Source of the DNA: Candidatus Stoquefichus sp.
GTDB taxonomy: Bacteria > Bacillota_I > Bacilli_A > Erysipelotrichales > Coprobacillaceae
Assembly: GCA_021768625.1 (NCBI GenBank)
Contig: JAETUM010000026.1
Location: 1-34,551 of the forward strand
DNA length: 34,551 bases
Reading direction: 5' to 3'
The translations under genes were made by a program, and so were the position numbers. How positions within the stretch are numbered: the stretch's first letter is position 1; each line of letters opens with the position of its first letter. Below the pieces are notes generated by a model that did no database searches, was not told the origin of the DNA, and saw only the letters and a program-made list of their open reading frames with translations. This document shows, in pieces, positions 29,172 through 30,542 of the stretch.

Positions 29172-29173
<2 letters not shown>

Positions 29174-29198
29174 GATGCAAAAAATTGCATCTTTTTTT
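29172..29198 (+). terminator. pyrD terminator
   Basis: AAGATGCAA (29172-29180), AAAA loop, TTGCATCTT (29185-29193) and T run. It begins in the pyrD stop. Confidence 0.85.
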
Positions 29199-29207
29199 AA
29201 AAAAATC

Positions 29208-29238
29208 TTGACCTTCCATCTAGGGGAAGGTGTAAAAG
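29208..29238 (+). promoter_or_regulatory. MerR-type promoter and operator
   Basis: TTGACC (29208-29213), a 19-bp spacer and TAAAAG (29233-29238). Between them lies the dyad ACCTTCC (29211-29217) / GGAAGGT (29225-29231), 7-bp arms with a 7-bp centre. An overlong spacer holding a dyad is the hallmark of promoters that MerR-family proteins activate by DNA distortion. It drives the adjacent merR-like gene, so autoregulation is inferred. Confidence 0.75.
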
Positions 29239-29255
29239 AAAGGTGAGGTGGTTAT

Positions 29256-30542
29256 ATGAAAATCAAGGAAGTGGAAACAAAAACACATCTTTCTAGCAAG
29301 ACAATACGTTTTTATGAAGATAAAGGTCTTATTACAATTCAAAGGGATCAATCTGGTTATAGACATTATACTGATGAAAATGTGAAAGAGTTATTGACAA
29401 TAAAAGTATATCGTCAATGTGGGTTATCTTTACAAGAAATTAAAGATGTTCAAAAAGGCAAGATTATGCTTGATGATCTTTTATATCAAAAAATATCTGA
29501 ATACGATAAAAAAGATTTTGAATTATCAGAACAAAAGGATTTTTGTTTAAATGTTATTCGTGCTCAAGGTGAGTATGAAGAACTTTATGAAGAAATAGAA
29601 ATCAAAGAATCAGATGATTATAATGAACTTGTTGATTTGGTTGTAGGAGCACATCAAAAATCATTATCTATTCAAATTTTACAAACCTTTGTTTTCTTAG
29701 GACCAATACTTAGTTTCTTCTTTTATTATCATGAAAATCAAGTAAAGAGATTAATGTGGTGTTTTGTAATTTCGTTATTTTCTGTTATGTTTATGACATT
29801 AAGCTGGAAAAATTTTTTAAATCATTATAAATTTCATAAAGAAACTATTTTACAAGGTTTAAAACATACATTATCAATTTTATTGATTTTGATATTTGTT
29901 TTGGCATCAACTTTGGGAATATTTATCTTATTAACAACGATTCAACAAAAGATTTATCTTCAGGGAACAGTTTATCTTTTTACACAATCTGGTTGGATAA
30001 CTGGAATAACAATAGTGATTGTTGTTTCAATTATTGCGATTTTATGTCTTTCACAATATGCTATACATTTTGATTTTCATGATTATGATGATTATATTGT
30101 TATAGCAAATTGGATAAGAAAACATATTTATCTTTGGATGTGTATGATTATCATTGTTTTTTATGCATTTATTACAAATACTTCAACAGTATCTGAAAGT
30201 CAAATAACATATTATTCATTTTTTCATCCACAGGGATATTCATATGATTATAATCAAATTGATAAGGTAGAATGTGGATTTTATGGCAAAAGTTCTTTTT
30301 TTGGACACGATAAAGGCGATTTTTATTATCATGTTACATTAAAAGATGGAAGAGTAATAGCTTTAGATGATAATCAAACGCTACCACAATATGAAGATGA
30401 AACGTATAGTGAGTTAGTTGTTTTTGACAATCAAGTGATGAAAAATCATGTCAAAAAAATATCTAGTCTAGATAATCAAGAATACGCTTTATATGACCAA
30501 GAATATATTGATCGCTTTCTATCTATTATTGAAAATAAATAA
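29256..30542 (+). CDS. membrane-anchored MerR-family regulator with C-terminal extracytoplasmic domain
   Basis: Residues 1-70 are a MerR winged-helix domain (KEVETKTHLSSKTIRFYEDKGL, GYRHYT, LLTIKVYRQCGLSLQEIKDV), followed by a helical linker to about 115, probably the dimer coiled coil. The remaining two thirds are unusual: five hydrophobic segments at about 140-158, 165-184, 205-227, 247-267 and 290-308, then a 120-residue soluble domain (309-428) rich in Tyr, Asp and His. With the HTH in the cytoplasm, five crossings place that domain outside. It could sense an envelope or extracellular signal. GAGGTGG lies 5 bases before the ATG. No transporter or efflux target gene is next to it. The C-terminal domain is not one I recognise. 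Confidence 0.85.
   Translation: MKIKEVETKTHLSSKTIRFYEDKGLITIQRDQSGYRHYTDENVKELLTIKVYRQCGLSLQEIKDVQKGKIMLDDLLYQKISEYDKKDFELSEQKDFCLNVIRAQGEYEELYEEIEIKESDDYNELVDLVVGAHQKSLSIQILQTFVFLGPILSFFFYYHENQVKRLMWCFVISLFSVMFMTLSWKNFLNHYKFHKETILQGLKHTLSILLILIFVLASTLGIFILLTTIQQKIYLQGTVYLFTQSGWITGITIVIVVSIIAILCLSQYAIHFDFHDYDDYIVIANWIRKHIYLWMCMIIIVFYAFITNTSTVSESQITYYSFFHPQGYSYDYNQIDKVECGFYGKSSFFGHDKGDFYYHVTLKDGRVIALDDNQTLPQYEDETYSELVVFDNQVMKNHVKKISSLDNQEYALYDQEYIDRFLSIIENK

Follow-up and report, generated by a model that had tools for sequence, protein, structure and literature searches.

A MerR-type protein with five predicted membrane helices and an operator dyad in the promoter of its own gene

Introduction

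Activation of transcription by MerR proteins involves a precise untwisting of promoter DNA by a soluble dimer. One-component regulators located in the membrane are widespread, and over a hundred types of DNA-binding domain are represented among them (PMC10269533). The window, the 34,551-nucleotide stretch of Candidatus Stoquefichus sp. DNA that was analysed, contains a gene in which a MerR-type helix-turn-helix (HTH) is joined to five predicted membrane helices, and this raises the question of whether its product is a sensor at the membrane that governs other genes or a membrane protein that governs its own supply.

The MerR gene and its promoter

The coding sequence (29256..30542, + strand) specifies a protein of 428 aa with an ATG start and was delimited by an open reading frame call and by comparison with full-length relatives. 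It is preceded by the -35 element TTGACC (29208..29213, + strand) and, after a 19-bp spacer, by the -10 element TAAAAG (29233..29238, + strand), both recognised from the sequence. Mostly within this spacer is a MerR-type operator dyad, ACCTTCC-ATCTAGG-GGAAGGT (29211..29231, no strand assigned), of 21 bp and of the form ACCTTCC-N7-GGAAGGT with perfect symmetry, and an operator dyad placed in a promoter spacer of 19-20 bp is a feature of the MerR family. In shuffled sequences, even when two mismatches were allowed, the dyad was matched 0.02 times per window, and in a whole-genome pattern scan no other site in the 2.92 Mb matched it with fewer than two mismatches. The upstream pyr operon ends in a hairpin that resembles a terminator (29172..29193, + strand), with a 9-bp stem and then a T-run, which parts it from the MerR gene; the gene downstream, which by inspection encodes a ROK-type kinase, is convergent, so that the MerR gene is monocistronic as far as can be judged from the sequence.

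Full-length relatives and their surroundings

Seven further full-length relatives were found. Genome searches yielded those of G013 and G052, with 41% and 33% identity to the window protein respectively, and relatives with 28% identity were present in the Lachnospiraceae isolate SIG293 (genome G630) and in G120; the remaining three, in G818, G761 and G670, came from a profile search of the family to which G630 belongs. Together with the window gene they make up eight HTH-bearing genes, which come from the order of the window and from a family of Lachnospiraceae type, some of the genomes being metagenome assemblies. In all eight the HTH, the helical region that follows it, the five helices and the C-terminal domain run end to end, and this architecture is kept across two distant groups at 28-41% identity for those compared, which answers the point raised by the initial annotation of whether homologues share the same layout. 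The gene is rare, with an intact copy in 4 of 294 genomes of the window's order and 4 of 348 of G630's family, and no relative was found in a single scan of viral contigs.

Each of the eight genes is preceded by TTGAC[CT]TT[CT] and, across a spacer of 19 bp, by a -10 box of the T[AT] type; the distance from the first base of the -35 box to the start codon is 46-152 bp. The hexamer is TTGACC in seven of the eight members and TTGACT in the other. The symmetry of the dyad, perfect in the window, can still be recognised in G013, G052, G120 and G818 and is weak in G630, G761 and G670, the weak end of the range including locus L039; all eight promoters have in common the left half-site and the length of the spacer. 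The initial annotation had described a 19-bp-spacer promoter with a clear dyad and had seen no efflux or target gene beside it. The promoter is present as described and its spacing recurs in all eight genes, and no efflux gene adjoins the MerR gene in the window genome.

No conserved neighbour or operon partner was apparent in the neighbourhoods inspected. The G013 gene follows pyrD, as does the window gene, and in G021 the corresponding position behind pyrD is taken by a broken copy with several stops (L071 4900-5880; also L012 and L051). By inspection a tRNA-like sequence lies upstream of the G052 gene, and in the Lachnospiraceae-type genomes unrelated genes stand beside the MerR gene. In G120 (L068 5211-9504) an ABC ATPase and a permease of 755 residues precede the MerR gene on the same strand, and the MerR gene has retained its own operator.

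Search for other targets

Regulon searches were made with fixed patterns and not with a weighted profile, so that diverged or non-dyadic target sites would be missed. In the window genome other matches at two mismatches were fewer than in the reversed control, and no second near-perfect ACCTTCC-N7-GGAAGGT site was found, the initial annotation having suggested that such sites elsewhere in the genome might reveal targets. When TTGACCTTC-type promoters were sought in six genomes the gene's own promoter was the sole clearly dyadic, correctly spaced match in each, and a looser pattern applied to eight genomes added sites only in about the numbers that the reversed control gave. It is thus very probable, from these scans, that the MerR gene switches only its own promoter.

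The two nearest of the extra sites were considered as targets and rejected: one in G761 had no convincing gene behind it, and one in G000:C26 was not dyadic and lay inside a 349-aa open reading frame. Only one further site was visibly dyadic, a promoter with a 19-bp spacer and different wording (TTGACTTTTACCTTGGTAACGGTGATA) at G052:C5:21034-21060; its palindrome is a different one, probably read by another protein, possibly another MerR protein.

The scans bear directly on the view that the protein is a membrane one-component sensor, in which the outside domain would detect a signal at the envelope, with the MerR part then activating its own gene and a few unlinked promoters, as BcrR does bcrAB. 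The architecture fits the class of transmembrane regulators (PMC10269533; BcrR, PMC3968067) and the location of the G120 gene, immediately after an ABC ATPase and a large permease of the same strand, is in keeping with it, but the pattern scans of eight genomes gave no second promoter that resembles the operator, there is no conserved neighbour in the neighbourhoods inspected, and the membrane part survives repeatedly without the HTH (see below), which is unexpected for a pure sensor. A sensor of this kind is the main rival to the reading favoured below and is considered less likely.

Protein architecture and topology

The N-terminal winged HTH (residues 1-67; 29256..29456, + strand) is a MerR_1 domain (PF13411), with a score of 67.3 bits against a cut-off of 21.6 and an E value of 1.3e-18; it is modelled with a pLDDT of about 90 and has CueR as its nearest solved relative. 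A copper-type metal regulator of the CueR kind, with a membrane domain added, would account for CueR being the top match of the HTH and for the agreement of the operator with the CueR signal, which is ACCTTCCC-(5)-TGGAAGGT within a 19-bp spacer (PMC1526738). However, the match to CueR is limited to residues 1-65 and at 58 bits falls far below the CueR cut-off of 147.4, placing the protein outside that group, the C-terminal metal-binding part of CueR is unmatched, and no copper gene adjoins, all of which makes a copper regulator highly improbable.

A long helix in the model (residues 72-111; 29469..29588, + strand) follows the HTH at the position typical of the family and is the predicted dimerisation helix. 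Hydropathy averaged over 14 relatives showed exactly five peaks, of which two, TM1 (138-156) and TM2 (165-183), span 29667..29804 (+ strand), are also evident in the alignment and are absent from relatives without the HTH except L080, and three, TM3 (208-226), TM4 (247-265) and TM5 (294-312), span 29877..30191 (+ strand) and form the core that those relatives retain. The count of five is a prediction, and TM2 is weak in some members. A DNA-binding domain and membrane helices are thus found within one chain, as in transmembrane one-component regulators.

The full-length AlphaFold model, with a mean pLDDT of 58.7, was too poor for topology. The Lys/Arg-rich loop between TM2 and TM3 (residues 184-207; 29805..29876, + strand) has 0.29 K+R per residue over the 14 relatives and the loop between helices 4 and 5 has 0.24, and both are predicted to lie inside in the cytoplasm; the density is 0.14 in loop 1-2, 0.09 in loop 3-4 and 0.08 where the C-terminal domain begins, and these stretches are predicted to lie outside. 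The flank preceding TM1 is not positively charged (K+R 0.095). Because a charge-rich loop comes directly before helix 5, the C-terminal domain is predicted to be outside the membrane however well helices 1-2 are predicted, and in the three-helix relatives as well.

The C-terminal domain itself (residues 313-428; 30192..30539, + strand) had been put on the far side of the membrane and called an unrecognised domain of about 120 residues by the initial annotation; the charge bias of the loops predicts the same location, and its ~115 residues were without a match in Pfam or NCBIfam. For the membrane module, too, Pfam, NCBIfam and PADLOC gave no matching family, and a sequence search of the PDB with the membrane part gave chance matches only. 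Weak Pfam matches to DUF6057, DUF1129 and the like were below cut-off and resembled membrane composition, and the PADLOC match 'mad1' was confined to the HTH; neither was accepted. A two-sequence AlphaFold run gave a model of the C-terminal domain with a mean pLDDT of 61 and a pTM of 0.54. With this low-confidence model Foldseek found nothing significant, the best match being to a FACT-containing complex at an E value of 0.05, and in a structural comparison the PH domains of FACT, Rtt106, TFIIH p62 and MTMR6 ranked first. The best of the PH-domain matches was weak (Z 6.3, a value graded as middling in the notes of the tool; 2.8 A over 74 residues) and the fold is tentatively regarded as PH-like.

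Relatives without the HTH

Seven relatives were found that have no HTH, in G774, G687, G936, G729, G1327 and G895 and as the second gene of G630. These proteins are about 234-264 residues in length and consist of helices 3-5 and the C-terminal domain, that of G895 being longer with a different N-terminus, and in six genomes such frames, of 234-264 aa, are uninterrupted. The operator is absent upstream of all seven; the G936 gene has an ordinary TTGACA-17 bp-TATAAT promoter and the G687 gene directly abuts its upstream neighbour. The co-occurrence of HTH and operator and their joint absence in the HTH-less forms are, like the architecture and the operator themselves, read directly from the sequences. 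The initial annotation had also considered that the membrane part might belong to a well-known separate family: separate proteins without the HTH do exist, but as a family they are undescribed.

In a tree of the shared region the HTH label changes four times, and its starred branches force at least three changes, but the tree has 14 rows and several long branches and shuffled labels score about equally, so that this is to be taken as scatter and not as a dated history. Repeated loss of the HTH would be the simpler direction, compared with gain, since the homology among the eight bearers takes in the HTH, the helix following it and helices 1-2.

Two loci show what appear to be products of deletion. 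The first residues of the G774 protein (L076 1501-2250), MQLKEVEK, resemble the start of a MerR protein, and the sequence after them already belongs to the loop that precedes helix 3, as though the HTH and helices 1-2 had been removed by an in-frame deletion. A ninth, decayed locus that still has an operator occurs in G954 (L081 1443-1818). The dyadic operator there is intact, and behind it MTIKDVEK runs in frame into the final ~97 residues of the C-terminal domain; the locus looks like a remnant without the HTH and all of the helices, the product of an in-frame deletion, perhaps at a short repeat.

With the G954 remnant and the broken G021 copy as examples, the forms without the HTH may be relics in decay and not working proteins. 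This would suit the view that the protein follows the ordinary logic of a soluble MerR regulator and has merely acquired a membrane tether by accident, the HTH-less forms being non-functional debris, and the abundance in relatives of membrane MerR proteins of another type, as well as the decayed copies in G954 and G021, speaks in its favour. Against an accidental tether stand the alignment of the shared region, in which the positions that are invariant or nearly so start at the end of the last helix, with very few of them outside the C-terminal domain (P131 and D197 invariant, six further positions at >=90%), and the frames that are intact in six genomes, and it is judged improbable.

Proposed mode of action

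Since the gene is very probably self-controlling and relatives keep the module of helices 3-5 and the C-terminal domain after loss of the HTH, the useful activity would reside in that module, and the protein is on balance taken to be an integral membrane protein with a built-in MerR-type autoregulator. An effector with its own autoregulator is favoured over a sensor of a regulon by the existence of HTH-less forms and by the lack of other operators. Of the membrane one-component sensor proposed in the initial annotation the membrane MerR architecture is upheld, whereas the role of regulon sensor is not the favoured one. The membrane part probably does the actual job, for which an envelope-protective, a transport-accessory and a ligand-binding activity are candidates. 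A more tentative generalisation is of a family of membrane effectors in which the MerR domain and a single operator are carried or lost together, giving one-gene, one-target control.

The mode of action that we infer combines direct autoregulation, the predicted topology and an effector role. A dimer of the cytoplasmic N-terminal HTH would occupy the dyad within its own promoter, whose 19-bp spacer is overlong, and would either keep that promoter weak or untwist it for activation, as CueR, MerR and BmrR do. The five helices would put the C-terminal domain outside the membrane, and the state of the attached membrane part or of the outside domain would decide the activity of the HTH. The output of the switch would be more of the same membrane protein, so that one product would be signal receiver, regulator and output at once.

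Comparison with known systems

If a five-helix membrane protein does untwist its own promoter, this extends the ways in which membrane regulators are seen to reach DNA, and the natural set of HTH-bearing and HTH-less forms allows one to ask which is selected, the regulator or the membrane part. In the literature no described membrane MerR family was found, and MerR-type transmembrane transcription regulators may be counted in the survey of that class.

The soluble regulators CueR and HmrR resemble the window protein in HTH sequence, in the operator ACCTTCC-N7-GGAAGGT and in the 19-bp spacer, and presumably in activation by DNA twisting. The window protein differs from them in being, as predicted, membrane-embedded with an outside domain, in leaving the metal-binding part of CueR unmatched and in having its own gene, and not an efflux gene, as its only recognisable target. 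The DNA-binding domain of BcrR of Enterococcus faecalis is not of the MerR type. BcrR is a one-component transmembrane regulator that acts from the membrane (PMC3968067), as the window protein is predicted to do. It drives a separate ABC-transporter operon, whereas the only recognisable target of the window protein is its own gene. ToxR-like proteins have one membrane helix. They and other transmembrane transcription regulators have a cytoplasmic DNA-binding domain, a membrane part and an outside C-terminal domain (PMC10269533; PMC5936718), the layout that is also predicted for the window protein, which is set apart from them by its five predicted helices, its MerR HTH and its close relatives without a DNA-binding domain.

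The initial annotation started from the premise that MerR proteins are normally soluble, which is weakened by the finding that MerR proteins with two membrane helices are common in the relatives, often as tandem paralogues. Tandem pairs were observed at L011 376-2595, L013 421-2595, L016 3-1755 and L017 419-2523 (coding strand), and the adjacency of near-copies suggests an expansion of paralogues or the formation of heterodimers. These proteins have in common with the window protein a MerR HTH, membrane helices and a C-terminal domain with a motif of the type Y-x-[YW]-x-[DE]-[IL]-x-x-V; homology of the two C-terminal domains was rejected, as profile comparison was not significant (probability <6%). 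Their two helices would leave the C-terminal domain in the cytoplasm, in contrast to that of the window protein. Attachment of a MerR protein to the membrane is thus not in itself unprecedented, and the distinctive points here are a module of five helices, a single target that is the gene itself, and the fact that several relatives lack both HTH and operator.
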